DNA of 64,000 bases from Maribacter sp. BPC-D8 (GTDB lineage: Bacteria > Bacteroidota > Bacteroidia > Flavobacteriales > Flavobacteriaceae): NCBI RefSeq assembly GCF_035207705.1, contig NZ_CP128187.1, positions 2,790,001-2,854,000 on the forward strand, read 5' to 3'. Of the stretch, positions 508 to 14,894 are shown piece after piece (the stretch's first letter is position 1; every line of letters starts with the position of its first letter). The translations under genes were made by a program, and so were the position numbers. Under the pieces are notes generated by a model that was not told where the DNA came from, searched no databases, and worked only from the letters and a program-made list of their open reading frames with translations.

Positions 508-1497
508 ATGAAAAAAATAGTCATACTAACTTTAGCCTTAATTACCTCAATTGGTGTGTATGCCCAAAGGAAAGATATTACCTATTACGATAATGGTCAG
601 GTTCGCAGGCAAGGTCAATATGACATAAAAAATCAAAAAACCGGCGAATGGAAATCATTTCACAAAAACGGGCAGTTATCATCAGTTGGAACATATGAAA
701 ACGATAAGCAAACTGGAGAATGGATAGACTATTTGTCAAACAAAACCTTATCTGGTATAGAAATGTGGGCAAAAGGACGACGAAATGGTGAATCGAAAAA
801 ATATAGACATGATGGTATACTAATAAAAATAGGCATGTATACCGATGGTAACAAAACTGGGGAATGGAAATATTACCATTCAAAAGATCAACTATCAAAA
901 TTAGAAAATTATATAAACGGACAAAAAATAGGCGAATGGAAAGAATTTCATAAAAATGGACAACTCTTATACATTGGAACTTATGAAAAACCCGATAAGG
1001 CAGAAGGAGAATGGAAATGGTATGAAGATGATGGACAGTTAGAAGCAATCGGAGTATATAGAAACGGTCTTAAAATTGATGAATGGAAATCATATTACAA
1101 AAACGGACAACTCGCGAGTTCAGAATTCTACGAGAATGGAAAGCTAAGCGGAGAATCTAAACGGTATAATACAAATGGTGAATTGTGGATAATTGGAAAA
1201 TATTTGAATGGAGGTAAAACAGGAGAATGGAGATGGTACCACAACAACGGTAAATTAAAAACGATTGGCACCTATATTGAGAATAAAAGCATTGGAGAAT
1301 GGAAGAGTTTCCACGAAAACGGTCAATTAAAGAAAATTGGGGATTATAACGACAACGGTAGACGAACCGGTAAATTTAAAGCCTATCACGAAAATGGAGA
1401 ACTAGAAAGTAAAGGCAAATACCATAATGGAAATCAAATTGGCAAGTGGAAGTACTACAACGTAAAAGGGACGCTCATAAAAACGACAAAATTTTAA
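508..1497 (+). CDS. Secreted MORN-repeat (YwqK-like) protein
   Basis: 329 residues with a cleavable signal peptide (about residues 1-19, ending VYAQ). The rest is twelve tandem repeats of 23-25 residues plus a partial thirteenth, built on the pattern H-x-N-G-Q-L-x-x-I-G-x-Y-x-x-G-x-x-x-G-E-W-K-x-Y. This is the MORN_2/YwqK repeat, in which beta-hairpins stack into an open sheet. YwqK in Bacillus is annotated as an antitoxin component, but in Bacteroidota such proteins are abundant, usually exported, and of unknown role. A surface or periplasmic binding scaffold is an inference. The start codon lies directly against the upstream intergenic repeat. Confidence 0.85.
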   Translation: MKKIVILTLALITSIGVYAQRKDITYYDNGQVRRQGQYDIKNQKTGEWKSFHKNGQLSSVGTYENDKQTGEWIDYLSNKTLSGIEMWAKGRRNGESKKYRHDGILIKIGMYTDGNKTGEWKYYHSKDQLSKLENYINGQKIGEWKEFHKNGQLLYIGTYEKPDKAEGEWKWYEDDGQLEAIGVYRNGLKIDEWKSYYKNGQLASSEFYENGKLSGESKRYNTNGELWIIGKYLNGGKTGEWRWYHNNGKLKTIGTYIENKSIGEWKSFHENGQLKKIGDYNDNGRRTGKFKAYHENGELESKGKYHNGNQIGKWKYYNVKGTLIKTTKF

Positions 1498-1596
1498 AAC
1501 CATTCTGATAAAAACCCTAAGTCCAAGTCTTACTAGTTCAAATTATTATTGATTTACATTAACTTTAGTTAAACGTTTTAGGAAATTAATATACAG

Positions 1597-2667
1597 ATGA
1601 AAATTAAGTTCAAACCTTCAAATTCTATTTTTTTTAAGGAGCTAAACGCAAACATTTCTGTCATACTAACCGACGAAGTAATTGATAAAAGTAAATGGGT
1701 TTTAAAAGCAAAATTCTTCTTTTACTTTTTAACCTTTCTGGGGCTTTATGCATTTCTATTTACCGATGTAGTAGCTAATTCATTTTCGCTACTAATAACA
1801 ACATATACGCTAATTGGACTTTCTGGAATATTACTAGCCTTTAATGCATCGCACGATGCCGTACATGACACTTTATTTACGAATAAGAAGTATAATGCTA
1901 TTACTCATTTTTTAATATTTAATCTACAAGGGGTGAATGCTACTTTGTGGAAAAAACGACACCTTTCTTCGCATCATTTATTCCCTAATGTAGATGGCTG
2001 TGATGCCGATATAGACAACAACTCGTTCATTCGATTATCGAACTCGCACACCCTAAAAAAGAATCATAAGTTCCAGCATTTTTATGCTCCGCTTTTGTAC
2101 TGCCTTTACACGCTGCATTGGATCTTTGTTAAAGATTTTATCTACCTCTCTAAAAAAGAGGTGGCTAATATGAAAGACTTGGTGTATTCAAAAAGGTTTA
2201 TTGCAGCCGTAATTCTTTTGAAACTACTTTATCTAGTATATATAATAGTGATTCCGTATTACTTTTTAGAAGTTGGGCTAGCCAAAATCTTAATCTCATT
2301 CTTTATAATGCATGGGGTAATTTCAATATTTTTTGTACTAACATTAATTATTTCTCATTTGACTACAGAAACTAGTTTTCCAAAGCATGATGAAAACGGA
2401 TTTTTACCTACCTGCTATCACGAACACCAACTTTCTGTATCGCTTGACTACCACCCTACTAGTAAATTTGCGAACTTTATTTTTGGTGGTTTCAACTCTC
2501 ATGCTGCGCACCATTTGTTTCCGAAATTACCACATACCCTGTATACTATTATAACACCAGAAATACAAAAAGCAGCGGTTAAGTTCTCTATGCCTTACAA
2601 TGAATTAAGCATCATCAATGCAATTTATTCTCACTTTAAATATTTAAAGAAATTAGGTGGTAACTAA
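1597..2667 (+). CDS. Membrane fatty acid desaturase
   Basis: 356 residues with several hydrophobic membrane segments and the three histidine boxes of the acyl-lipid/acyl-CoA desaturase superfamily. These are HDAVHD (His86 and His90), HLSSHH (His122, 126, 127) and HAAHH (His302, 305, 306), which bind the di-iron centre that inserts a double bond into a fatty acyl chain. The last box, followed by LFP, matches the front-end/linoleoyl-CoA type (DesA3-like), though regioselectivity cannot be read from sequence. Such enzymes usually adjust membrane fluidity. The gene stands alone, about 100 bp after its neighbour, on the same strand. Confidence 0.88.
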   Translation: MKIKFKPSNSIFFKELNANISVILTDEVIDKSKWVLKAKFFFYFLTFLGLYAFLFTDVVANSFSLLITTYTLIGLSGILLAFNASHDAVHDTLFTNKKYNAITHFLIFNLQGVNATLWKKRHLSSHHLFPNVDGCDADIDNNSFIRLSNSHTLKKNHKFQHFYAPLLYCLYTLHWIFVKDFIYLSKKEVANMKDLVYSKRFIAAVILLKLLYLVYIIVIPYYFLEVGLAKILISFFIMHGVISIFFVLTLIISHLTTETSFPKHDENGFLPTCYHEHQLSVSLDYHPTSKFANFIFGGFNSHAAHHLFPKLPHTLYTIITPEIQKAAVKFSMPYNELSIINAIYSHFKYLKKLGGN

Positions 2668-2800
2668 TTCCGCTTACACTACTCCGCTCCTTTTCAATCA
2701 ATTGAAAATTAGTTACTTTTTCATAACCGAATAAAGAAAAAACCGAATGACTATACCGAGCTACTGCAGTACATTTCTTATATTCAGAGTATTTATAACT

Positions 2801-3382
2801 ATGAAAAAATCACTTTTAATACTTTTACTATTCAGTCTCAACCTTTGTTTTTCTCAAACAATAATTGAGCAAACCGATTTGGCTAATTGTGCGCTTGAAT
2901 TAACGGAACAACAGGTAACGTATGACCCAAGTTACTTTTCTATTGATTACCCAAACGGAGATGTACCCAATGACAAAGGTGTTTGTACAGATGTTGTAAT
3001 TCGTGCGTACAGAAAAGTTGGAGTTGACTTACAGAAAGAAGTTCATGTAGATATGAAATCTAACTTTAATGTGTATCCGAAAATATGGGGACTCAAAACT
3101 ACTGACCGAAATATTGATCATCGTAGAGTGCCTAATTTGATGACCTTTTTCAAAAGAGAAGGTGCCGAAAAACCGATTTCTAACAACCCAAATGATTATT
3201 TACCTGGCGATATAGTTTGTTGGAATTTAGGAGGAGCTATTACGCATATTGGTATTGTAGTCGATAAAAAATCAAACGACGGAAAGCGCAATTTAATCGT
3301 GCACAATATTGGGGGCGGACAAGTTTTGGCTGATTGTCTCTTTGACTATAAAATTATCGGTCATTATCGTTATAACAAGTAA
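2801..3382 (+). CDS. DUF1287 family exported protein
   Basis: The start at 2801 is preferred over an in-frame ATG at 2747 because it begins a signal peptide directly (MKKSLLILLLFSLNLCFSQ). The mature part, about 175 residues, has the DUF1287 hallmarks: YPNGDVPNDKGVCTDVVIRA near the start, and further on GDIVCWNLGGAITHIGIVVD. The conserved Cys in GVCTD and His in THIGIV are consistent with an NlpC/P60-like papain fold acting on periplasmic peptides or peptidoglycan. That activity is inferred from fold similarity; the family is formally of unknown function. It is a stand-alone plus-strand gene in the accessory region. Confidence 0.8.
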   Translation: MKKSLLILLLFSLNLCFSQTIIEQTDLANCALELTEQQVTYDPSYFSIDYPNGDVPNDKGVCTDVVIRAYRKVGVDLQKEVHVDMKSNFNVYPKIWGLKTTDRNIDHRRVPNLMTFFKREGAEKPISNNPNDYLPGDIVCWNLGGAITHIGIVVDKKSNDGKRNLIVHNIGGGQVLADCLFDYKIIGHYRYNK

Positions 3383-3400
3383 AAATCATAACTTAATAGC

Positions 3401-3419
3401 TGTATACGAACAGTATACA
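3401..3419 (+). terminator. Small hairpin, possible terminator
   Basis: TGTATAC (3401-3407), a five-base loop and GTATACA (3413-3419) form a 7-bp perfect stem 19 bases after the DUF1287 stop. A modest T-rich stretch follows at about 3423-3430. The stem is AT-rich and short, so termination is only a possibility. Confidence 0.3.
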
Positions 3420-3477
3420 ACTGTCTTTTACACACCACGTTTCATACACCAATTGTCAAATTTAATTAAAAAATAAA

Positions 3478-4593
3478 ATGGGTTTTCTGAAAAAAAAATC
3501 ATCATCTAAAGAAACTGAAATTCAAGAAGCAGAAGTACTTATAGAACTACAATCACCTTCTTGCCCCGTAACCGCTATTGTAGAACAAGACAATAGAACG
3601 GTATACTTTTATTTATGGGGTGCTGAGGGATCTAACTTCGGTGTTAAGTCTTCTTGGGTGAGAAATCTAAAAAAAGCTCCTCAACAGCTAGAAACAGCAT
3701 TAATGGAGCAAGGGGTACCACCAATGCAGACAGAAGAATTCTGTATACACCCTAATGGTTCAGAAAAACTGAATAAAGACGACCTCAGTATCATCTGGTT
3801 AGAAGAAGGTGATGGCGCTGCGCTTTTATTAAACGGTGAAGTTATTTCGATCATACCAAGCTGGGCAGGTCAAAACGGATTTAACGGATATGCAAAAGAA
3901 GCAAAAGGTCAAGGTGATTTTGCTTGGGAGCTTTCTGACAATAATGCCTTATATGATCGAGTTCATGCATCAAAAGAATTTTGGGACGCTTGGGATTTAG
4001 AACAAAGCCCTTTCAATATACTACAGCCAAAAATACTTGATACGTACGATGAAATCTTTGGCGAGCAAGATAACTACTTTGCTATAGATGGTAATGAATG
4101 GCCACCAAAAGGTCTTTATTTGAAGAAAGGAGAATCAAAAACGGTATTTGCTACAGTAGGTCTTTCTCTAATACCAATGCCAGTAGTTGAAATGTATACC
4201 GAAAATCGTTTCGATGCTAATAGAATAGAATTTGGCTTTCTTCTAAATTCACCAATTACAGACGAGGCAGTGCAACAAATTGGAGGATGGATGAGTGCCC
4301 AAACCACGATACCCTGGCACAATATTACTTTTTTGGGAGAAGGGCATACCATTGAATTTCTGTCTTTAAATTCAAGTAAATTGAACTTTGTTCTTCTAAC
4401 CAGTCAACTTAACATCTTACCTGAACCCAATATTGAAAAGTATAGAAACTCAAAAACAAATTTTCTATGGATGGTACCAATATCCGAAAAAGAAAGACAG
4501 CATATTGTTGATAATGGTAGTGATACAATAATCGAAAAACTAAATAAAATTGGGAAAGAAGTTTTTTCTTTAGATCGTGCCGAAGTGATATAA
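3478..4593 (+). CDS. SUFU (suppressor of fused) domain protein
   Basis: 371 residues, no signal peptide or membrane segment, so cytosolic. Residues about 15-165 form an N-terminal domain I cannot assign. The C-terminal half matches bacterial SUFU domains: a strand ending TVGLSLIPMPV, then IEFGFLL, then IPWHNITFLGEGHTIEF, and finally FLWMVPISEKERQ followed by a helical end (DTIIEKL). SUFU is known in eukaryotic Hedgehog signalling; in bacteria it is widespread as an immunity-type domain beside polymorphic toxins. No toxin gene is adjacent here. Immunity function is therefore an inference from the domain and from the SUKH gene about 5 kb downstream. Confidence 0.8.
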   Translation: MGFLKKKSSSKETEIQEAEVLIELQSPSCPVTAIVEQDNRTVYFYLWGAEGSNFGVKSSWVRNLKKAPQQLETALMEQGVPPMQTEEFCIHPNGSEKLNKDDLSIIWLEEGDGAALLLNGEVISIIPSWAGQNGFNGYAKEAKGQGDFAWELSDNNALYDRVHASKEFWDAWDLEQSPFNILQPKILDTYDEIFGEQDNYFAIDGNEWPPKGLYLKKGESKTVFATVGLSLIPMPVVEMYTENRFDANRIEFGFLLNSPITDEAVQQIGGWMSAQTTIPWHNITFLGEGHTIEFLSLNSSKLNFVLLTSQLNILPEPNIEKYRNSKTNFLWMVPISEKERQHIVDNGSDTIIEKLNKIGKEVFSLDRAEVI

Positions 4594-4646
4594 AATTTGA
4601 GATTCAGCAATTAACCTATCTAACTAATATTGCAGTAAAATAAAAT

Positions 4647-5096
4647 ATGAAACGACTTTTAAAAAAGAATAGAAGTGTAACTCTGGTTTTTATTACTTTG
4701 TTCTTCTACGCTAATCAATTGAGTGCTCAAGAAAGTGCTATAAAATTACCATTTGAAGAAATCGATTTTATAATTGGTAGAAATCATAGTAATAAACTAA
4801 TCGACACATACGAAGAGGCTGTGAAAATTGGTTTAGTAACTGAAAATATAGAATCAGAGAAGTTTTATGAAAATAATGCGGTCTATTTATTTAATGTTGG
4901 AGGTGGTTGTTTTGGTGCTATACCCCAAGAAATATCGACCGAATTAGAAAACAACATGGTCATGATAAATTGGGCGGCACCCAACGAACCTTGTCCATCA
5001 GTTGGAATAGCATTATCCTTTTATGGACAAATAATTATATCTAAAAAAGAATACCCGAATTATAAAAGTTTAATATTTAAATATTACTGGGAGTAA
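4647..5096 (+). CDS. Hypothetical exported protein
   Basis: 149 residues. A basic N-terminus (KRLLKKNR) is followed by a hydrophobic stretch (VTLVFITLFFYANQLSAQE) that reads as a signal peptide cleaved near residue 28. The mature protein has a cysteine in a Gly-rich segment (VGGGCFGAIP) and another in NEPCPSVG, which could form a disulfide in the periplasm. I do not recognise the family. The gene starts 53 bp after the SUFU gene on the same strand, so co-transcription is possible. Confidence 0.6.
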   Translation: MKRLLKKNRSVTLVFITLFFYANQLSAQESAIKLPFEEIDFIIGRNHSNKLIDTYEEAVKIGLVTENIESEKFYENNAVYLFNVGGGCFGAIPQEISTELENNMVMINWAAPNEPCPSVGIALSFYGQIIISKKEYPNYKSLIFKYYWE

Positions 5097-5111
5097 TTGA
5101 AATACTAAAAA

Positions 5112-5256
5112 CAATCGTTGGTAATAGCTATAGCTTATACAGTTTCAATTGCTAAATAAAATTAGAATTCAATCAACACCGTCAATTCTTTTAATTCAGT
5201 TCTAAACTAAAAGTTACTAATTTCATTTACGCAATAATAGTAACTTATAACGATTG
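5112..5256. repeat. Nested inverted repeats in intergenic DNA
   Basis: The 184-bp gap between the two flanking genes contains an outer pair, CAATCGTT (5112-5119) and AACGATTG (5249-5256). Inside it lies a second pair, AAGTTACTA (5211-5219) and TAGTAACTT (5238-5246), with an 18-base loop. Both pairs are perfect. The inner hairpin may be an attenuator or operator for the gene starting at 5281. No T-run follows it, so it is not a standard terminator. Confidence 0.4.
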
Positions 5257-5280
5257 CTATAATTCTAAAATAAATAGTTA

Positions 5281-6291
5281 ATGGCAAGAATATATTATCA
5301 CGAAGAAAGACTAAGCGGTCATGCTTTTGAAAATGAAGTTATCAATGTAAAATTGTTCGACCTAATATTTGAAAATACTGAAACTAACGGATATGATATT
5401 AAACCTATTTCAACTAGTTCATTTTTTGGATTAATAAAATCAAAAAATAATACTTTTAAAACTGTTGGTGTTTCAAGAGACGGTATTAATTACAACACCA
5501 CAGAGGGGAACTTCTATTTACCAAAAGCATTAATTTTCTATGATAATAATGATAATACTTTCCCCTCTGAATTTTATTTTATCGCTAAAATTCAAGATCA
5601 AATAGAAATTCGTAAATGCAGTGGTGGTAAAACAGTAAAATGGTTTCAAATACCAGATTTACATTCAGAGGTTAAAGATGCCAAAATCATTCAAAAAATA
5701 GAGAACACTCTTTTAGAGCTTAAAAAATTGTTGCCCACAACACAAAAGGCAGTAATTAATATTAATAAGAAAAAGGACAAAGTAAAAGTTGAGGAAAACC
5801 AACCTTTATTAAATAAGTCCGTAAAAGAAGCTTATCAAGCACTGGCAAAAATATGCCTTGGCATGAACTCAAAAGAGAAAAATGTAATTGAGTTTTTTGA
5901 TACACTTAAAAACTACGACAAAGACCTTGAATATTTTACCACCTTAAATTTTGTAATAGACTTTTTAGAACAAAATGATAATTCATTCATTTTAAGATTA
6001 GATTGGAAAGCTGATATCGAAGATTTAGAATGGGTTTTGAAATCGGCTTTAAATGACAATTTCAATGTATCTTTTGATTTACCTAACCCTGGGGATTATG
6101 GTAAAAACGCATCTGTATCTTTCGACAATGTTTTTGAAGATTTCAACAAATCACTAAAGCAAAACGGATTTCAAATGAGTTTTATTGATACGCAGTCAGA
6201 TGAATATGTATTCTTATTACATAAACTGGAAGATAAAAAGGAGGTTGAAAACAGTATAAATGAAATCGGATATAAGTATTACGAGAAATAA
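5281..6291 (+). CDS. Hypothetical protein, shares a domain with the 7726-8493 product
   Basis: 336 residues, soluble, no signal peptide. Residues about 1-155 form a beta-rich N-terminal part; a lysine-rich linker follows (about 155-180), then a domain over residues about 180-330. That last part contains RLDWKADIEDLEW and later GFQMSFIDTQSDEYVFLL. The same arrangement, a DW motif followed about 90 residues later by GFQ-x-x-F-x-D-x-x-x-DEY, occurs in the 7726-8493 product, so the two share a homologous module. It resembles what I recall of DUF6630-type proteins, but that assignment is tentative. The function is unknown; the setting suggests an immunity-like or accessory role. Confidence 0.6.
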   Translation: MARIYYHEERLSGHAFENEVINVKLFDLIFENTETNGYDIKPISTSSFFGLIKSKNNTFKTVGVSRDGINYNTTEGNFYLPKALIFYDNNDNTFPSEFYFIAKIQDQIEIRKCSGGKTVKWFQIPDLHSEVKDAKIIQKIENTLLELKKLLPTTQKAVININKKKDKVKVEENQPLLNKSVKEAYQALAKICLGMNSKEKNVIEFFDTLKNYDKDLEYFTTLNFVIDFLEQNDNSFILRLDWKADIEDLEWVLKSALNDNFNVSFDLPNPGDYGKNASVSFDNVFEDFNKSLKQNGFQMSFIDTQSDEYVFLLHKLEDKKEVENSINEIGYKYYEK

Positions 6292-6323
6292 GCGCTAACA
6301 CAACATCGATACGTCATAAAACT

Positions 6324-6914
6324 ATGAGTGAACTCATACATACAATAGGTATTCATCATTTATGCATTAAGCATAACGACATTAAATTAATTGCCAATAC
6401 ACTAGAATTATCAGATACAGAAGAATTAATTTTTGATAAAGAACATAATTGGAGTTCGCTTTATAAAGATGCTACCGAATTTTTAATAATAGAGTCAAAT
6501 ACGGAATGGACATACGTGGTATTCAATATTTGGGAATTTGATTTAATAAAATTAATAACGCAGAAATTATCTGAGAATCTTAAAACAGAAGTCAATTATT
6601 TTTTCATTGATCCATGGGTAAGTACCACAAGATGGATTAATTCTGAAAACGGGAAAATTAATAGAAGTCATTGGCAAGAAGACGAAACTATATTTGAAGA
6701 CTATGGTTCGCTCTCACTTGAGCATGAATTAATAGACAAACCTGTTTCATCTGCAATTAAAGAAATTGACGAAATTGATATTTTTTGGGATGAGATCGCA
6801 AAATTATATTGGAATCTAAGTAATACACTTTCACCATCCATTTCTAGCTTGAATGAAGGGAATACATATAATGCGATTAGAGGTTTTTTTAATATGAATC
6901 AAACATTCAACTAA
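6324..6914 (+). CDS. Hypothetical cytosolic protein
   Basis: 196 residues, acidic and tryptophan-rich (W in HNWSSLY, WTYVVFNIWEF, DPWVSTTRWI, SHWQED, IFWDEI, YWNL), with no signal peptide or membrane segment. I do not recognise a family. An acidic, aromatic-rich small protein among SUFU and SUKH genes would fit an uncharacterised immunity-type protein, but nothing in the sequence proves that. The start is 32 bp after the preceding stop, which suggests one transcript with the 5281-6291 gene. Confidence 0.55.
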   Translation: MSELIHTIGIHHLCIKHNDIKLIANTLELSDTEELIFDKEHNWSSLYKDATEFLIIESNTEWTYVVFNIWEFDLIKLITQKLSENLKTEVNYFFIDPWVSTTRWINSENGKINRSHWQEDETIFEDYGSLSLEHELIDKPVSSAIKEIDEIDIFWDEIAKLYWNLSNTLSPSISSLNEGNTYNAIRGFFNMNQTFN

Positions 6915-7029
6915 CAATTTGCTTAAAGTTCTAACTAAAAAATCTTCATATAAAAACATATTTTTTAATTTTCAATACTCGCCCCTACCCTTTTTATGGA
7001 CCAGATAAAACCATACAATTTCAACTTAA

Positions 7030-7641
7030 ATGAAGAAAAACAACGAAGGTAGAGGCTGTCTTATTATATTTTTAAGTCCATTTGTAATCATTGGGCTTGT
7101 CACGTTATGCCTAAGCATTTTTAATTTATACAATTCTAAAAAGACGAATAGTTGGGCCAAAACAAACGCCGAAGTACAAAGTCTTGAATTTGACCATGAA
7201 AACTATGATGGTGCATCATCATACAGAGTTAAAATTACTTATGAATATATAATTGATAATGTAAAATATCAAAATAATAAAATTGCTTATGGCTATGGAA
7301 TGAATGGCGTTGACGACCATCATAATCTATATTTAAAATTAAAAGACGCTAAAAAAATTGTCGCCTACATAAACCCTAACAATAATTCTGATTCTATTTT
7401 AATAAAAGGCCTTAATGGTTCTATTTTAGGATTACTCTTATTTTCTATTATGTGGAATGCTGGCGTATCTATTTTTTTAGTTCCAATCTTAATGAAGAGT
7501 AATTCAAAACTATTATTCAAAAAACTGATCGTAATCGTTTTCATAATATGGTCTATTGGAATTATATTAATTGTGACAAAATCAATTCAAATTCCATTAG
7601 AAAAGAAAATAGAAGTAATAGAAACCTCTACAAGAAGATAA
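7030..7641 (+). CDS. DUF3592 domain membrane protein
   Basis: 203 residues. A first membrane helix (CLIIFLSPFVIIGLVTLCLSIF) is followed by an exposed beta domain of about 90 residues containing WAKTNAEVQSLEF, YRVKITYEYIIDNVKYQN and KKIVAYINPNN. Two further hydrophobic segments then end the protein. The order helix, W-x-x-x-x-A-x-V, strand-rich YEY section, VxVYYNPxxP-like element, helices is the DUF3592 pattern. The family has no established function and is often found near toxin or immunity genes and in mobile regions. It lies 115 bp after the preceding gene. Confidence 0.7.
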   Translation: MKKNNEGRGCLIIFLSPFVIIGLVTLCLSIFNLYNSKKTNSWAKTNAEVQSLEFDHENYDGASSYRVKITYEYIIDNVKYQNNKIAYGYGMNGVDDHHNLYLKLKDAKKIVAYINPNNNSDSILIKGLNGSILGLLLFSIMWNAGVSIFLVPILMKSNSKLLFKKLIVIVFIIWSIGIILIVTKSIQIPLEKKIEVIETSTRR

Positions 7642-7725
7642 ATCAGAACCAAAATTTCATTCTAGTTTATTACCTTACAACTACAATAATTCAACCCCAT
7701 TTATCAGTAATTAAAACCAACCTTT

Positions 7726-8493
7726 ATGGATAGTGATTTGAAACAAATTTCTAAACTAATCTTAAAAGAAAGATTTTCAGATTTTGAATCTTTTTATAAT
7801 GACTATGCCTTAGACCTTGACCTTTTCAAATTAAAGCATGAGAAAATCTTATTAAAATGGTTCGACAAAGAAGACTTTGCTGAGCTGAAAGATTATTTAT
7901 ATCCCGAATATCTTTTAATTATTTATGGTGGATTTCTAAATAAAATATATTCTGCTGATTGGAGCGGAGAAGAATATCCTGGACAAGTAAAAGCTTCTTT
8001 AACCAACATATTAAAAACCTATGACCATCCTACTTTTAAGTGGAATCTAAAAGTGTTTGAAGCGACTCTAGACCAAGAATCTATAAAGCGTGGCGAGTAT
8101 ATAGATTTACTATTTAAAGCATTAGACAATAGCCTTTCTGATACCGGTTTTCAGTTGTTATTTTTAGACTTATTTAATGACGAATACTATTATACTATTT
8201 TACCGGCAAATGAAATAGCAGCGGCTTTAAATATTGCAGGAAAAGAATTTCGTACGTGTGACAGTAAAACCTATGATATTGAAATTACCAGTTTAGGAAG
8301 TAACAAATCTAAAATAATACTGTTTATAAAAAATAAGCACAAAATTGAGCTGAAAGAAATTTTAAAGCACATTAAAAACTCACCTATTTCTGTAGAAAAA
8401 TCTTGTTCTATTTTAAGAATAAAAGAATTAGAACAAGAATTAAAAAACTTAGGTTGCGAATATAGAATAACAGAAAATACCGCTGCAAAATAA
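7726..8493 (+). CDS. Hypothetical protein with C-terminal ribosomal L7/L12-like domain
   Basis: 255 residues, cytosolic. Residues about 60-175 carry the module shared with the 5281-6291 product (ADWSGEEYPGQ, then TGFQLLFLDLFNDEYYYTIL). Residues 183-249 align end to end with the C-terminal domain of ribosomal protein bL12. YDIEITSLGSNKSKIILFIK corresponds to the FDVxLxxxGxNKxxVIKxVR strand, IELKEILKHIKNSP to the GLGLKEAKxLVExxP helix, and KELEQELKNLGCEYRI to the AEALKKxLEExGAxVEV end. In bL12 that domain recruits translational GTPases to the ribosome. Whether this protein touches the ribosome is inference. The start lies 84 bp after the DUF3592 gene. Confidence 0.65.
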   Translation: MDSDLKQISKLILKERFSDFESFYNDYALDLDLFKLKHEKILLKWFDKEDFAELKDYLYPEYLLIIYGGFLNKIYSADWSGEEYPGQVKASLTNILKTYDHPTFKWNLKVFEATLDQESIKRGEYIDLLFKALDNSLSDTGFQLLFLDLFNDEYYYTILPANEIAAALNIAGKEFRTCDSKTYDIEITSLGSNKSKIILFIKNKHKIELKEILKHIKNSPISVEKSCSILRIKELEQELKNLGCEYRITENTAAK

Positions 8494-8532
8494 CCCCTAG
8501 AAAACAGACCAACAAGCCTAAACATTACATAA

Positions 8533-9066
8533 ATGAAAATCGCAACTAGAATATTCATCCTTTTTTTAACTGTAAATTTTCTTTCTTGTAAAGGAAATGC
8601 ACAAGAATCGGAGACAGCTGAAAAGAAAATTGAAATTTCAAAAACGACAAAGCCTACTTTGCCTGAATCAATCGGAATTATAAATGATTACGGAGAAGTC
8701 TTTACAGAACCTCAACGTGCCGAATTATCAAAAATACTTTATGATTACGATATTGAAACAACGAGACAAATTGTGGTAGTAACTATTGATAGCATAAAAC
8801 CTTATGACAACATTCACAGATACGCAACAGATCTAGGTCAAACTTGGGGAGTAGGAACCGCCGAAAAGAATAACGGTTTAACAATTGTTCTTTGTAAACC
8901 TTGCAGGCAAATAGGCATTGCAACCGGTACCGGAACAGAACTAATATTAACCGACGAAATTTGTAAAAAAGTAATTGAAGAAAAAATAATACCCGAATTT
9001 AAAAATGATGAATTTTATCTCGGTATTAAAAAAGGCGTATTAGCATTAATAGAAAAGTGGAAATAA
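8533..9066 (+). CDS. TPM-domain lipoprotein (YgcG-like)
   Basis: 177 residues with a lipoprotein signal (hydrophobic stretch, then NFLSCKG, lipidation Cys about residue 19). The mature part is a TPM domain (TLP18.3/Psb32/MOLO-1): IGIINDYGEVFTEPQRAEL, then TTRQIVVVTIDSI, then WGVGTAEKNNGLTIVLC and IGIATGTGTELILTDEIC. The GxGxExxLTD segment and the NNGLTI strand are family signatures. TPM proteins include acid phosphatases and thylakoid photosystem repair factors; the bacterial forms are membrane associated and mostly uncharacterised. Unlike many YgcG proteins it lacks a C-terminal helix and Gly-rich tail, so the lipid is its only anchor. It follows the L7/L12-domain gene by 39 bp. Confidence 0.82.
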   Translation: MKIATRIFILFLTVNFLSCKGNAQESETAEKKIEISKTTKPTLPESIGIINDYGEVFTEPQRAELSKILYDYDIETTRQIVVVTIDSIKPYDNIHRYATDLGQTWGVGTAEKNNGLTIVLCKPCRQIGIATGTGTELILTDEICKKVIEEKIIPEFKNDEFYLGIKKGVLALIEKWK

Positions 9067-9124
9067 GTTTTATAAACACTACTTCAGATAAAAGCATTTT
9101 GTAGCCCATTAAAAATTATTTCAA

Positions 9125-9817
9125 ATGACTATTTCACAAAAAATAAAGCAACTTTTTAATTTAGATGAAGGTATAAATTCTTTTGGTTACGAAGAAGTTG
9201 AACTTGCTGAAGTTGAAACAAGATTAAAATTAAATCTTCCAGAAACACTTAGAGCATATTATTTGACCTTAGGTAAAAATACGAGCATAAATAATGCTCA
9301 CAACAATCTATTTAAACCTACTGAAATAGGGTTTTCTAATGACATGTATTTAATGTTTTATGAAGAAAACCAATCTGTAGTTAATTGGGGAATCAAGCAT
9401 ACAGACCTGCAACTTGACAATCCGCCGGTTTGGGGTAATTACGGCTCAAATGAATTACCCGATTGGCAATTAGAAGCCAATACAACCGAATTATTTTTAC
9501 TTCTTATGGCAATCGTTAATGGAACGCTTGGCGGTCTAAAATTTAATACGAACAGTTTTGAAACCGTTAAGCCAGAAGTAGTCAGAACAATCAAAATGAG
9601 CTGGACTGAAATAGAAGAGATTAGTTGTAACAAGCAAAAAATGTATACCAACGACTTTAAAGAAGTTATAAGCCTAAGTTTTGACGAAAAAGAAAATTGC
9701 ACTGCCATTTTTACTGGAACAAATAATAAACATCGATTTGATAATCTTATCGATAGTTTAAAAATAAAATGGTCTTATATTTCTACTGAAGATGACGAAG
9801 ATGTTGATCAAAAATAG
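9125..9817 (+). CDS. SMI1/KNR4 (SUKH) family protein
   Basis: 230 residues, cytosolic. Residues about 18-150 show the SUKH pattern: an early GYEEVELAEVETRLKLNLPE, where a conserved Glu precedes LNLPETLRAYYLTLG, followed by strands MYLMFYEENQSVVNWGI and WGNYGSNELP, and a helix TELFLLLMAI. The C-terminal 80 residues are an additional domain ending in an acidic tail (EDDEDVDQ). SUKH proteins are immunity proteins of many polymorphic and contact-dependent nuclease toxins, and some occur as orphan multi-immunity arrays. Together with the SUFU gene at 3478 this argues for an immunity island, although no toxin is visible. Confidence 0.8.
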   Translation: MTISQKIKQLFNLDEGINSFGYEEVELAEVETRLKLNLPETLRAYYLTLGKNTSINNAHNNLFKPTEIGFSNDMYLMFYEENQSVVNWGIKHTDLQLDNPPVWGNYGSNELPDWQLEANTTELFLLLMAIVNGTLGGLKFNTNSFETVKPEVVRTIKMSWTEIEEISCNKQKMYTNDFKEVISLSFDEKENCTAIFTGTNNKHRFDNLIDSLKIKWSYISTEDDEDVDQK

Positions 9818-9881
9818 GGCATCTCACATGTTTAGTCTCCATTAAAAAATTACAGATCTTTATCATTAATCAATTCTAAAA

Positions 9882-10208
9882 ATGGAATTATCTAAGAGCA
9901 CATTAAATAGCGGACTGAGTTTCTCTATGGAATTTGGAAAAAATTGGCTAGTTGACATACAAAAAAGGTTACGAAATGAAAATCTCGAATTGACTACATC
10001 AGAATTAGATTTCTGCAACAAGTTATGTAAAAAAGTAAATAAATGTGCTCATGATTACGTGAGTAATAATCCTGTAAAAGGTAAAAAGGAAATTAGTTTT
10101 ATGGAATTTTCTCAATTTGCAAAATTCATGAAATCGAAATACGAGTGGATTAATGATAAAAATCTTAGCCATCTTTATAGTCAAAGCTGCTATTACGCTT
10201 TAAAATAA
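9882..10208 (+). CDS. Small hypothetical protein
   Basis: 108 residues, basic and probably all-helical, with four cysteines in the middle and C-terminal parts (DFCNKLCKKVNKCAHDY, SQSCYY). CNKLC-x5-C is compatible with metal or disulfide bonding, but no known finger pattern fits. There is no signal peptide. I do not recognise the family. It starts 65 bp after the SUKH gene on the same strand and could be co-transcribed with it. Confidence 0.5.
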   Translation: MELSKSTLNSGLSFSMEFGKNWLVDIQKRLRNENLELTTSELDFCNKLCKKVNKCAHDYVSNNPVKGKKEISFMEFSQFAKFMKSKYEWINDKNLSHLYSQSCYYALK

Positions 10209-10374
10209 CAGGAAATTCAAATAAGTAAATGCCCATTACACTATTTTAAAACAAAGGCGACTATTCAATTACTTAATCTCAAATTCTACTAATTACTTAA
10301 CCAAACTCACTTTAATTAAATAAACTGCGTTATTAAAACTCCATCATAGCTGCCATTTTCACTAAATAAAAAAA

Positions 10375-11652
10375 ATGAAAAACTATTTACAACTTATACT
10401 TCTATTTACACTTTGTATAACATTTGGTTGTAAAGAAGATGCTAAAGACCAAAACATGGGCAACAACCAAAACCAAGTTGCACCAGAGAATACTATAAAA
10501 GAAGTTGATAGTGTAAAGAAGTCTACCACAGTGCCTACTCAAACTACAAAGAAATATAAATTTATAATTGCAGAGTCTGGCTTAAACTACAGAGACAAAC
10601 CTAAAGGTAAAGTCGTAGGAAAATTTGAATGGAGAGATAAAGTAGAATACCTTTTTAGTACACAGCAAACAGAAACTATTACAGACAATTCTCAAGAAGT
10701 TGAAGGTACATGGGTTGCCCTAAAACATTTAAAAGATACCGTTTATGTTTTTGATTATTATTTATCTGACCACGAGCCTAGAAGATCAAGAACTAAATTA
10801 TACTATGCTGAAGCCTATTATAGAGATATTCTTCAGCCCTCTAAAGAAATAGATATAAGACTAGCATTTGTTAATGTATCTGAAAGTTTTCACATGCCCG
10901 AAAATTTCATTGACAAGAAAGATTTACGAAAAGACACGATACACTTTAGTCAAAAACAACGTACAGAATTCTTTAAAAGAATGAACTATGCTAACAGCGA
11001 TACATTATTCATTTACGACTTAGCATCAACTTTAGTTAAAAGACTTCCGATTAAAAACATACCATTAATGGCATGTGTAAGTATTTATTCGAGCGTAAAA
11101 GATGAGTACAAAACAGAAGATTATTATAGTCATGACTATCAAATTGGTTTTAATTTAGGCAAGGCAGGTTATAGCGGTTTTGCTGTAATAGGAAAAGAAA
11201 ATCCTTTTGTTGAAAAAGGACTACAACCCTTAATTTTCAAGAAAATGAATCAACAGCAAATTGACAGCAATCTTAAAAAACAGATAATCTCTGAAGATTT
11301 GGTGAATGATTCTGTTTTTAAACCCTACACATCAAATTATAAAAACATAAGTGCATTTGTAAAGGCAAATACAGACTATTCAAATTGGTCTGATTTAATT
11401 ATTATTAATACACAGACAAAAGAGTCTTTTGATATTTATCAAGAAGAAGGGGAATCAAGCGGTAAGGCTGACCTAAGCCTAGCAGATGTAGCGTCAGAAT
11501 ACCCAGAAAACTATCAATATATCGGCAATTTATTTAAGAACAAACCACCTGTTGTATTTGGGTTTATGTGGGAGTCTTTTGGTTGTTCTCAAATTCAGTT
11601 TTTAGATAATAATGAATTACCTATTAGAATTTTATGTGATAATAGGCATTAA
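10375..11652 (+). CDS. Lipoprotein with N-terminal SH3-like domain
   Basis: 425 residues with a lipoprotein signal (ITFGCKED, Cys19). A low-complexity Asn/Gln/Thr linker of about 35 residues leads to a bacterial SH3-like domain (residues about 62-130: AESGLNYRDKPKGKVVGKF, then GTWVALKHLKDTVYVFDYYL), a fold that commonly binds peptidoglycan or peptides. The remaining 290 residues are not assignable; they contain a Gly/Tyr segment (GKAGYSGFAVIG) and end with GFMWESFGCSQIQFLDNNELP. An envelope location is secure; a role at the cell wall is inference. A 166-bp gap precedes it, so it probably has its own promoter. Confidence 0.65.
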   Translation: MKNYLQLILLFTLCITFGCKEDAKDQNMGNNQNQVAPENTIKEVDSVKKSTTVPTQTTKKYKFIIAESGLNYRDKPKGKVVGKFEWRDKVEYLFSTQQTETITDNSQEVEGTWVALKHLKDTVYVFDYYLSDHEPRRSRTKLYYAEAYYRDILQPSKEIDIRLAFVNVSESFHMPENFIDKKDLRKDTIHFSQKQRTEFFKRMNYANSDTLFIYDLASTLVKRLPIKNIPLMACVSIYSSVKDEYKTEDYYSHDYQIGFNLGKAGYSGFAVIGKENPFVEKGLQPLIFKKMNQQQIDSNLKKQIISEDLVNDSVFKPYTSNYKNISAFVKANTDYSNWSDLIIINTQTKESFDIYQEEGESSGKADLSLADVASEYPENYQYIGNLFKNKPPVVFGFMWESFGCSQIQFLDNNELPIRILCDNRH

Positions 11653-11702
11653 AAATGAACGTACTACTTTAGTAACACTAATAGTCAAATAGTATTAAAA
11701 TA

Positions 11703-12431
11703 ATGATTAAAAAAATAATAATTTTTATATCGATAGTACTACTCCTTATTATTTCATACAACTATTTAAACCCTCCATTTGCAGTTAAAAATTCAGAGGC
11801 ATTAAGTTTAGGCTTTAAAGTAAAACCTTTTAGAGACAGCATCAATGTATTTATACCTTATGAAATTACGGTATATAATAATAGATATCAATCATTAGAA
11901 CTTGGTAGAATTTATGATGAAAATGATAGAGATTACAGACCAAACTTATTATACAATAAAGACGGTGTAGAATTAGGCAGGCTTTATAATGATTCAAAAA
12001 AACAATACGAAGATGAACCCTACTGGCTGAAATTAGAATATAGAGATATCATTTTCCCATTCACAAAAAGAGTTTTTTATTATTACAGAAAGCATACTCT
12101 TAGTAATAAAAATGATGTTTTTAATATTAAAGAAATAGATAGAGACTCTCTTTACAAGCAACTGGCTGAATTGAACTATAATATCAACCTAAATAAGAAC
12201 AATCATATTATTGATAGTTTATACAAAGTAAATCGTATGAAAATTTTCAATGTGGATTTTGATACGGAAAGATTTACACTTTCAAAGTATATAAAAGCCA
12301 AAATCAATAGTAATGAACAAATAGCTATTAACATTGACTACCGAGACTCTATGCAAAATATGACTAAAGCTCAAAAGAGAGCTTATGTACTTAAGTTAGC
12401 CAAAACAAACACAAAATTAGATGATTTTTAA
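11703..12431 (+). CDS. Hypothetical membrane-anchored protein
   Basis: 242 residues. One N-terminal hydrophobic helix (IIIFISIVLLLIISYNYL) without a convincing cleavage site points to a type II membrane anchor with the rest outside the cytosol. The remainder is rich in charged and Tyr residues; VFIPYEITVYNNRYQSLELG looks like a beta-sandwich strand pair. The C-terminal 60 residues are Lys-rich and helical. I recognise no family. It follows the SH3-domain lipoprotein by 50 bp, so both may serve in one envelope-associated unit. Confidence 0.55.
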   Translation: MIKKIIIFISIVLLLIISYNYLNPPFAVKNSEALSLGFKVKPFRDSINVFIPYEITVYNNRYQSLELGRIYDENDRDYRPNLLYNKDGVELGRLYNDSKKQYEDEPYWLKLEYRDIIFPFTKRVFYYYRKHTLSNKNDVFNIKEIDRDSLYKQLAELNYNINLNKNNHIIDSLYKVNRMKIFNVDFDTERFTLSKYIKAKINSNEQIAINIDYRDSMQNMTKAQKRAYVLKLAKTNTKLDDF

Positions 12432-12587
12432 AATCAAATCAAAACCTCAATTATCTATTTCAATGTAAAAAGGTTATGCTAATTAAAGTGTTGTTTAATG
12501 TATTTAAGTCTCAAAAAATATTAAATTACCAATAACATCCAGAACTAAAAACAGCACAATAACAACTGCTTTATATCTTAATAGAAA

Positions 12588-13094
12588 ATGAAAAAAATAG
12601 CAATTGGTTGCGGAATATTTTTAGTGCTGGTCATTGGTACTGTTACCTTACTGTTCTATATACTTACGAGACCTAAATACAGAGATGTAGCTACTGAGAA
12701 ACCATTTTCAGAAATTTTAAGCCAGCAATTAACTACGAAAAGACCTACCCTAATTTTAAATTATGATTTACCTAGATATGAAGACTATAGCTATCATTTA
12801 GAAGATGGAAATGGTTTTGGTATGAATTCTGATTTAGAGGTACTTGCCGAAATACCAATTGGAACACCGGTACAAATAGATAAAATAGAACTACACACCA
12901 ATAGAGTTAGCGGTACATCTAGCGCTTATCTTTTTGGTACAGTGTATAGTAAAGAAAAGCAAGAAACCTATGCTTTTCAATATACCTGGGGCGATTACCA
13001 TTTATTATATGAAGACAAGCCCTACTGGACATTTGAGCTTGCCTTTTGGCAAGATGAACCATTGACTGAAAAGTATTTTATCGATGTTCCTTGA
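12588..13094 (+). CDS. Hypothetical membrane-anchored protein
   Basis: 168 residues. A single N-terminal helix (IAIGCGIFLVLVIGTVTLLFYIL) is followed by TRPKYRD and a domain of about 135 residues outside the cytosol. Seen motifs are GTPVQIDKIELHTNRVSGTSSAYLFG (split here as GTPVQIDKIELHTN and RVSGTSSAYLFG), FQYTWGDYHLLY and PYWTFELAFWQDEPL. The pattern of a helix plus a small beta domain recalls many unassigned Bacteroidota envelope proteins. No family recognised. It is separated from the previous gene by 156 bp with no obvious terminator. Confidence 0.55.
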   Translation: MKKIAIGCGIFLVLVIGTVTLLFYILTRPKYRDVATEKPFSEILSQQLTTKRPTLILNYDLPRYEDYSYHLEDGNGFGMNSDLEVLAEIPIGTPVQIDKIELHTNRVSGTSSAYLFGTVYSKEKQETYAFQYTWGDYHLLYEDKPYWTFELAFWQDEPLTEKYFIDVP

Positions 13095-13190
13095 TAATGA
13101 TATTCTTTAATTGACCGTTACCGAAAATTCAAAAAGAGTAGCTATTCATAATATCCTTACCAATTTTATTTTACTGAGTGATAGGCATTA

Positions 13191-13240
13191 TCCTTAAAAA
13201 TAGTTGACGCTAACTGTTCGTTTTCAACTATTTTTAAGGA
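13191..13240. repeat. Hairpin with 17-bp perfect stem
   Basis: The arms are 13191-13207 (beginning TCCTTAAAAATAG) and 13224-13240 (ending CTATTTTTAAGGA). They are exact reverse complements, separated by a 16-base loop. The hairpin ends 30 bp before the start codon at 13271. The T-rich run lies inside the stem, so this could terminate the 12588-13094 transcript or act in the leader of the next gene. It could also be a small mobile-element remnant. Confidence 0.6.
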
Positions 13241-13270
13241 CTATTAACTTGTTTACCATTTCGACTAACC

Positions 13271-14467
13271 ATGAAAACTATAAAACTATTCCTCTTCTGT
13301 ATCTCGTTAGCTTATGTTGGCGTAATATCTGCCCAATCTAAATGGGATACAACTACTCAAGAAGATATCAAAATATATACACCTAGTGATTTAAAGAGCG
13401 GAAAAACGTTTGACGTTTACGCATATGGTCCAACAGAAACTCCAAATGAAGATTTAAAAAATTGGGTGCTTGAAACTGCAAAAGAAAAGCAAAAGGCAAT
13501 AGGTGAGCCACTTAAAAAGTGGGTTGTAAAACCTGAAAAAGAAGATTACGGCATTACCAATAGCTACAAAGACGACAAAGGTGTTACCATGCAAGTCGCT
13601 TACCAAGGTGGTAAATTAGAAGATGGTCGTAATTTCTTGATTAGACTTATCATTTCAAACGATCTTATTACTGTACTGAAATATGGTACTAGATTAGAGG
13701 CTCTTTTAGTTGACATAAAAGCCGATATGGTAACTAGACAGACTACGGCAACCGACAAAAAAAGTATTGCTTCTAACAAAGTAAATACTGCACCTACCCA
13801 AACTACTACTAAAGAAGCCGCTATCAATGAAATATCCGAAACCTCATTATCACCAGGCAAAGCTCCCGATGGGTTGGTAGAACTAAGAGGTCTACTGGGA
13901 ACAGGTATGCAATCTACTGGTATGGTGGGTACCACTAGTAATGTAATAGCACTCTTTAAAGACGGAACGTTTACGAGTGATATAGGGTACACCTTTTCTG
14001 CAGGTGTTGCGGCATCTAAAAGAAAAAATCCGAAAAGATGGGGACAATGGCGAATGCGCAATAACGAATTAGAACTAAAGAAATATAATAAAACCGAATT
14101 TGATGAAGCTCGAGATTGGCTAACTGAACCCGCCTCTAAAGACTTAAAACTTAATGGTTGCTATGGCAAAATAACCTCTTCGAGTTACAGTGGTTATGGT
14201 GGTGGCAGTACTGTTGGTAATGCTAGTTCGTGGTGTTTTCAACCTAATGGTCGCTTTTCACATTCTAAAACAGGTTTTGCTAATGCAACTGGTGATGTTA
14301 GGGGATCTACATCTTCCAATAAAAAATCGGGCGGTAGATATTACCTATCAGGTTATGCAGCTAGGTTTATATACGACGATGGTACTGAAGTCACTACTTC
14401 TTTTTGTTTTTTGAATAAGAAGAAAACGCACATAGCCATTAATGGAAAACGATTAATTGGCAAATAA
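13271..14467 (+). CDS. Hypothetical exported protein
   Basis: 398 residues with a signal peptide (LFLFCISLAYVGVISAQ, cleaved near residue 22). An N-terminal domain (about 25-155) contains KIYTPSDLKSGKTFDVYAYG and YQGGKLEDGRNFLIRL. A Thr/Ser-rich linker (about 157-190) leads to a C-terminal domain (about 195-398) rich in Gly and Ser, with GYGGGSTVGNASSWCF, FQPNGRFSHS and KKSGGRYYLSGYAARF. That C-terminal pattern, a GxWxxxNG-type beta sheet, is shared by many secreted Bacteroidota proteins of unknown role. I cannot name a family. The strong hairpin just upstream may regulate it. Confidence 0.6.
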   Translation: MKTIKLFLFCISLAYVGVISAQSKWDTTTQEDIKIYTPSDLKSGKTFDVYAYGPTETPNEDLKNWVLETAKEKQKAIGEPLKKWVVKPEKEDYGITNSYKDDKGVTMQVAYQGGKLEDGRNFLIRLIISNDLITVLKYGTRLEALLVDIKADMVTRQTTATDKKSIASNKVNTAPTQTTTKEAAINEISETSLSPGKAPDGLVELRGLLGTGMQSTGMVGTTSNVIALFKDGTFTSDIGYTFSAGVAASKRKNPKRWGQWRMRNNELELKKYNKTEFDEARDWLTEPASKDLKLNGCYGKITSSSYSGYGGGSTVGNASSWCFQPNGRFSHSKTGFANATGDVRGSTSSNKKSGGRYYLSGYAARFIYDDGTEVTTSFCFLNKKKTHIAINGKRLIGK

Positions 14468-14492
14468 AAGACAACATTGTAATGCCATTAGT

Positions 14493-14894
14493 ATGAGTAA
14501 ACTTTTAGCGGTTATTCCATTTTTCCTTTTCATATTCGTATCATGTGAGACTAGTGATGTTGATGGCAAATGGGACGACAATATTAAGCTTTCAGAAAAT
14601 AATATTACAATTTCTGCCGAAGCAAATACAGTTCTCATAACAACAAAAGGTAGTTCTTGGTGGGTTGCTGGAATAATACTGAATGATGATTCAGATTATG
14701 ATATTTCTGATATTGATACTACACAATTAGATTTCGTGATATCAACGGAAGACTTTATCATAGAAAGAAAAAATGCAAAAGAAATTCATGTCTCCATAAC
14801 ACCAAACAACACAGGTTTAGAAAGAACCTTAACCGTTTCGTTACAAGCTGGTAATTACTTTGACGGATTCAACGTGCACCAAACTATAGATTAA
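14493..14894 (+). CDS. Small lipoprotein with BACON-like domain
   Basis: The ATG at 14493 is chosen over a TTG at 14457 because it starts a lipoprotein signal directly (MSKLLAVIPFFLFIFVSCE, Cys18) and avoids overlap with the preceding gene. The mature 115 residues form a beta-rich domain. GSSWWVAGI and a later segment NAKEIHVSITPNNTGLERTLTVSL resemble the BACON domain, where the NxTGxxRTxxVxL strand is typical; BACON domains bind carbohydrate or mucin in Bacteroidota. The assignment is tentative. It follows the preceding gene by 25 bp and closes the accessory cluster. Confidence 0.55.
   Translation: MSKLLAVIPFFLFIFVSCETSDVDGKWDDNIKLSENNITISAEANTVLITTKGSSWWVAGIILNDDSDYDISDIDTTQLDFVISTEDFIIERKNAKEIHVSITPNNTGLERTLTVSLQAGNYFDGFNVHQTID

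Follow-up and report, generated by a model that had tools for sequence, protein, structure and literature searches.

Within a 64,000-nucleotide stretch of the Maribacter sp. BPC-D8 genome (hereafter the window), we found that the gene at 7726..8493 on the forward strand encodes a 255-residue protein in which a DUF6630 domain is followed by a diverged relative of the C-terminal domain (CTD) of ribosomal protein bL12. Its translation, Pfam matches and homologues identify it as a genuine open reading frame; all features located in the window below lie on the same strand. The DUF6630 domain spans residues 51–172 (7876..8241; PF20335, E 3.3e-10, 41 bits against a curated cut-off of 27), and the bL12 CTD homologue, delimited by Pfam, profile and fold comparisons, spans residues 182–251 (8269..8478). 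We propose that this product is probably an orphan immunity protein and would render harmless a toxin that a competitor delivers, with the L12-like domain acting as a protein-binding module.

The initial annotation had claimed that residues 183–249 (encoded by 8272–8472) align end to end with the bL12 CTD and are fused to a separate, uncharacterised module, which we now identify as DUF6630. Ribosomal_L12 (PF00542) matched residues 183–246 at E 5.8e-4 and 20.6 bits, below the curated 25.9, and a single-sequence search of the Protein Data Bank (PDB) gave a weak best E of 0.085, with bL12 in five of six rows, including the best four; an NCBIfam scan of the product returned no relevant family. Because single-sequence evidence alone leaves the bL12 claim marginal, we added profile tests. 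Homologues were collected in two rounds (11 proteins, then 69 by profile), for a total of 70 (P0001–P0070), of which 66 entered the full-length alignment A2 (P0004, P0007, P0010 and P0041 were excluded). At least 62 CTD residues are present in 59 of these 66, the remaining seven being 101–220 residues long, and the fusion is thus kept in relatives; A2 favours CTD-bearing members, since it was gathered by a full-length profile with a length filter. Scanned singly, 62 of the 66 matched DUF6630 and 11 matched Ribosomal_L12 at E ≤0.1 (best 2.9e-5). For the CTD we built a separate alignment, A3, of 33 pieces (32 DUF6630-type rows chosen from 39, plus one row from the SUKH-type fusion described below). 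Searched against 395 genomes of the phylum, A3 gave a match at E 0.01 in 196. The window gene came first (4.2e-23), followed by the SUKH fusion at 8.0e-18 (a value inflated because the same sequence is an A3 row), and the others, among the matches listed, all fell in frames of at most 188 residues, the size of an rplL frame, from E 5.6e-8. A3 likewise found bL12 at all 31 rplL loci drawn from Pfam searches (E ≤2.8e-3 in this small frame set) and, against PDB sequences, the nine best of 18 matches were bL12 (best E 1.4e-5). With the SUKH row removed, profile–profile comparison by hhalign aligned the DUF6630-type CTDs with bL12 over 65 columns at a probability of 94.6% and E 6.9e-8 (hhalign E-values here refer to single comparisons). 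The predicted fold, beta-alpha-alpha-beta-alpha-beta, superposes on the bL12 CTD. The end-to-end relation and the fold match put forward in the initial annotation were therefore both borne out, and we conclude from the sequence comparisons that the domain shares descent with bL12 and is deeply diverged from it. The resemblance to bL12 covers fold, length and end-to-end profile match. It differs in that the window protein has no Pfam L12 N-terminal (dimerisation) domain, Pfam giving DUF6630 in front and otherwise only the CTD, and in that the gene is not at the rplL locus; the strong rplL match lies at G000:C1:174836. Weak, non-ribosomal Ribosomal_L12 matches were also seen elsewhere in Bacteroidota, at G344:C36:29576 (447 residues), G335:C4:245166 (202 residues), G127:C3:75965 (a 94-residue frame) and G320:C35:18495 (a 713-residue frame); these are possibly other uses of the L12 helices, or chance.

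A survey for the same fusion, as the initial annotation had suggested, revealed a second one. When A2, which contains no SUKH row, was searched against the phylum, it matched at E 4.2e-7 the end of a different protein in genome G552, a 368-residue protein in which Pfam recognises SMI1/KNR4 (SUKH-1; E 2.0e-8) and, weakly, Ribosomal_L12 (E 0.018). From 84 candidates, the C-terminal region of this protein picked out 27 protein clusters; each has an SMI1/KNR4 domain, and the named ones are from Chryseobacterium. Of 296 genomes in the family to which Chryseobacterium gregarium (G681) belongs, 21 have the CTD at E 1e-6: the DUF6630 type in G681 itself and 20 others (the coordinates in G1056 are identical to those of the G552 find), with the SUKH part in the same frame as the CTD in 19 of the 20. 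DUF6630-type and SUKH-type CTDs align with each other at 97.9% (hhalign, E 4.2e-13), compared with 94.6% and 86.4%, respectively, for each against bL12. In a 68-row tree, all the non-ribosomal CTDs that were sampled fall to one side of a branch with support 98/92; this tree is built on 75 columns, carries a warning of meeting long branches and was rooted on bL12 by choice. The window protein thus resembles SUKH-1 immunity proteins in so far as some of these, in Chryseobacterium, carry a related L12-like CTD, and differs in that its front part is DUF6630, with no SMI1/KNR4 match in the Pfam scan. One hit of the family survey, at locus L133, is a frame from 1462 that holds an L12-like CTD in 73 residues; neither a DUF6630 nor a SUKH part was found near it, and it may be a remnant or a stand-alone domain.

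The genomic contexts of some relatives point to immunity. Recombinase-associated acquired interbacterial defence (rAID) loci are described as arrays of short immunity genes in one orientation, accompanied by a tyrosine recombinase and by conserved motifs between the genes, and SUKH proteins from such loci were reported to bind and neutralise an effector of the type VI secretion system (T6SS) (PMC12247911, a preprint); the main text of that preprint, supplements aside, has no mention of DUF6630, L12 or ribosomal. One DUF6630-L12 relative, on an IMG/VR contig (L108), lies in an array carrying all three of these marks: a tyrosine recombinase (838–1956; Phage_integrase, E 2.2e-40), then co-oriented short genes that include Imm11 (E 4.2e-7) and, by eye, a macrodomain-like gene, and a repeated intergenic motif. 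We built a motif model from five copies, and it recovered an additional copy outside the model-building set at 5942–5981, directly before the DUF6630-L12 gene (E 1.2e-6). The same model found seven copies at E ≤3.3e-4 around a relative in Bacteroides sp. ET71 (L013), where DUF1963 and Macro genes and a weak SMI1/KNR4 match are also present; this locus carries two of the three marks, no recombinase being seen within the 11 kb examined. On 40 random control sequences the best E was 0.19, and at loci L010, L011, L012 and L014 nothing better than E 2.4 was found. The likeness to rAID orphan immunity genes of Bacteroidales lies in the presence of a repeated intergenic motif at both loci and of a tyrosine recombinase at L108. 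Relatives in Chryseobacterium and Cyclobacteriaceae sit in clusters that look immunity-like, and a relative in a Deferribacteraceae metagenome-assembled genome has, by eye, ankyrin-repeat-like genes nearby. An immunity role is likely because some relatives sit among predicted toxin–immunity genes, and the marks at L108 and L013 strengthen this reading; by extension, the window gene would have the same role as its relatives in rAID-type arrays.

A first alternative concerns descent itself. The domain could owe nothing to bL12, being either a widespread beta-alpha-alpha-beta-alpha-beta scaffold or an adaptor of the ClpS kind with its similar fold topology, and one result weighs on that side: in the reverse direction, a profile of 31 bL12 CTDs reported just 18 of the 33 CTDs, at 3.1–18.6 bits. 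However, ClpS structures superpose more poorly (rmsd at least 2.4, 2–11% identity), the profile–profile probability against ClpS is 1.8%, and the frames of 30 ClpS loci gave a best E of 0.61 against A3; we reject a ClpS-like adaptor on the sequence profiles, and, unlike ClpS, the bL12 profile matches the CTD over its full length. We regard independent origin as very improbable. A different question is whether the domain still does what the bL12 CTD does. Helices 1 and 2 of the L12-like domain (8305..8373) correspond to what we take to be the face of the bL12 CTD that bears the factor contacts, and about half of these contacts are changed. We assume the contact set to be K65, V66, I69, K70, R73 and K84 in Escherichia coli numbering (window residue minus 129, from structural alignments). 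These positions hold K, I/L, I/V, K, R/K and K in all 31 bL12 rows and K, S, I, L, K and L in the window protein. Across the 33 A3 CTDs, three positions are largely kept (M/L/I at 69 in 31, K/R at 73 in all 33 and K/R at 84 in 29), and three are not: K/R stands at 65 in 15, V at 66 in two, with S in 15, and K/R at 70 in two, with L in 24. The SUKH-type CTDs (26 of 27, one having been missed by the pattern) all have K65 and K73, with M/L at 66, I/V at 69, A/T at 70 and L at 84. The TGLG loop of bL12 is replaced in the family, and a K at position 67 (27/33 A3 CTDs, 26/26 SUKH CTDs) is a new feature common to both branches. The CTD family thus does not carry this contact set of a functional bL12 stalk protein, and each branch appears, from these alignments, to have lost part of the factor surface, K70 in both.

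These losses weaken the plain reading, offered in the initial annotation, of binding to a translational GTPase; the domain would in that case guard EF-Tu, EF-G or another such factor, or bring the immunity module to it. The bL12 CTD is described as a common site for translational GTPases (PMC10931766), and the SUKH-type CTDs combine K65, a hydrophobic residue at 66, I/V at 69 and K73 in 26 of 26. Against this, K70 is replaced in nearly all A3 rows and by A/T in every SUKH CTD, and the window protein shares with each of the 26 SUKH CTDs an L at position 84. As it was stated, this part of the initial annotation is not supported, with 70 mostly L and 66 mostly S in the family, and we consider it quite unlikely. 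Another possibility is that the domain imitates the ribosomal stalk as a decoy and captures toxins that use bL12 as a dock on their way to the ribosome, to be blocked then by the DUF6630 or SUKH part. The domain is a bL12 homologue that keeps I69-, R73- and K84-type residues in most of the 33 rows; effectors that dock on the stalk are known (PDB 8phj, one chain of which was among our fold matches, holds Cami1 together with the 70S ribosome), and abstracts describe eukaryote-directed ribosome-inactivating proteins that dock on the stalk. A decoy should retain the docking surface, yet K70, V66 and the TGLG loop have all given way to other residues, and no toxin partner is known for it. We therefore hold the decoy to be rather unlikely, and the same modest chance attaches to the broader idea that bacteria grafted the tip of the L12 stalk, loosened from translation factors, onto DUF6630 and SUKH-1 proteins as a target mimic that captures toxins. 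With about half of the GTPase contacts lost, the domain probably grips a different protein. In the orphan-immunity reading that we favour, competing bacteria would deliver a toxin into the cell, the DUF6630-L12 protein would bind and neutralise it, and the L12-like domain may form part of the binding surface, its partner being most simply the toxin itself or the toxin bound to its target. Several observations count against this reading. No toxin or binding partner was recognised in the loci examined, and inspection by eye showed none beside the SUKH-L12 gene of G552 and none upstream of the Chryseobacterium relative; the neighbours of the Tenacibaculum relative and of the G552 gene look, by eye, like housekeeping genes; and the motif model built from L108 found nothing better than E 2.4 in the window and the upstream stretch L120.

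The window cluster differs from rAID in its lack of the motif, no recombinase was found among the 20 window proteins scanned with Pfam, and we do not class it as rAID. Its content nonetheless agrees with the initial annotation's description of an immunity-like cluster, as do the two relatives in rAID-type arrays and the related CTD on SUKH-1 proteins. From 508 to 14894 the listed non-overlapping genes all lie on the forward strand, some of them longer than 300 codons. They include a protein with a SUFU domain, an immunity-associated family (3478..4593; Pfam E 9.2e-15), a second DUF6630 protein of 336 residues with no L12-like domain (5281..6291; Pfam E 4e-21) and an SMI1/KNR4-like (SUKH) protein with a weak, below-cut-off match (9125..9817; Pfam E 0.0022); DUF3592 and TPM genes belong to the same co-oriented run. 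The second DUF6630 protein, 1.4 kb upstream of the fusion gene, has a long N-terminal part and is distant from the first (BLASTP E 2e-4 over 30 residues). Among the window frames, the CTD profile matched only the fusion gene (next E 0.51). A known anti-phage system was considered and set aside: PADLOC gave no match at E 0.1 for the fusion protein and, of the six proteins given, one neighbour matched weakly (E 0.02). Searches of the genome for a T6SS or Rhs toxin with VipB and RHS_repeat gave no match, a weak negative because the controls matched rarely (VipB in one of 14 genomes, E. coli; RHS_repeat in two) and a Bacteroidota-type T6SS could be missed. Upstream of the cluster are MORN-repeat-like proteins, Pfam-confirmed at 508–1497 and seen by eye on L120 at 6350–7306, 11204–11857 and 12047–13150. 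Also on L120, about 10 kb upstream of the window (4063–5314), two adjacent open reading frames resemble, by eye, an IS3-family transposase pair, a possible trace of mobility.

The DUF6630 part, predicted alone, gave a confident model (pLDDT 92.9) with no clear fold match of any kind in the PDB, which does not by itself prove a new fold. A family motif, DWSGEEY (residues 78–84), is near-invariant in homologues. Within the branch of the window protein (residues 78–123, window 7957–8094), DWSGEE is invariant in 50 aligned rows and RG at residues 122–123 is near-invariant.

The distribution of the fusion is patchy. In surveys of one genome per species, the DUF6630-L12 gene was found in one of 299 genomes of the window's family and the full-length protein in one of 395 genomes of the phylum, in both cases the window's own; among 301 genomes of the family to which the Bacteroides isolate belongs, the isolate was the sole carrier. 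These absences are soft because first-look candidates were partly scored in many genomes (for example, 6 of 12 in the phylum survey). The 90% cluster P0031, by comparison, has 475 member sequences. Carriage as plasmid or phage cargo was rejected: 72,556 plasmid and 50,697 phage records searched by tblastn with P0031 gave no match, and the sole IMG/VR match is L108, which has a conjugation coupling-protein gene and reads as a conjugative element.

bL12, rAID and SUKH immunity are each already known. In the literature that we searched we found no description of an L12 CTD carried by two immunity-type scaffolds, and no paper with DUF6630; automatic annotation in the source database already gives the name ‘ribosomal protein L7/L12’ to two of the 69 homologues. 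Our results offer a first lead on a possible role for DUF6630 and mark a recurrent cassette, the P0031 cluster, as a candidate immunity gene. Should the stalk-decoy idea hold, one would expect a so far unseen class of toxins, exchanged between bacteria, that dock on the bacterial stalk. More broadly, proteins that probably protect bacteria against one another seem to have taken up a domain of a ribosomal protein as one of their modules.
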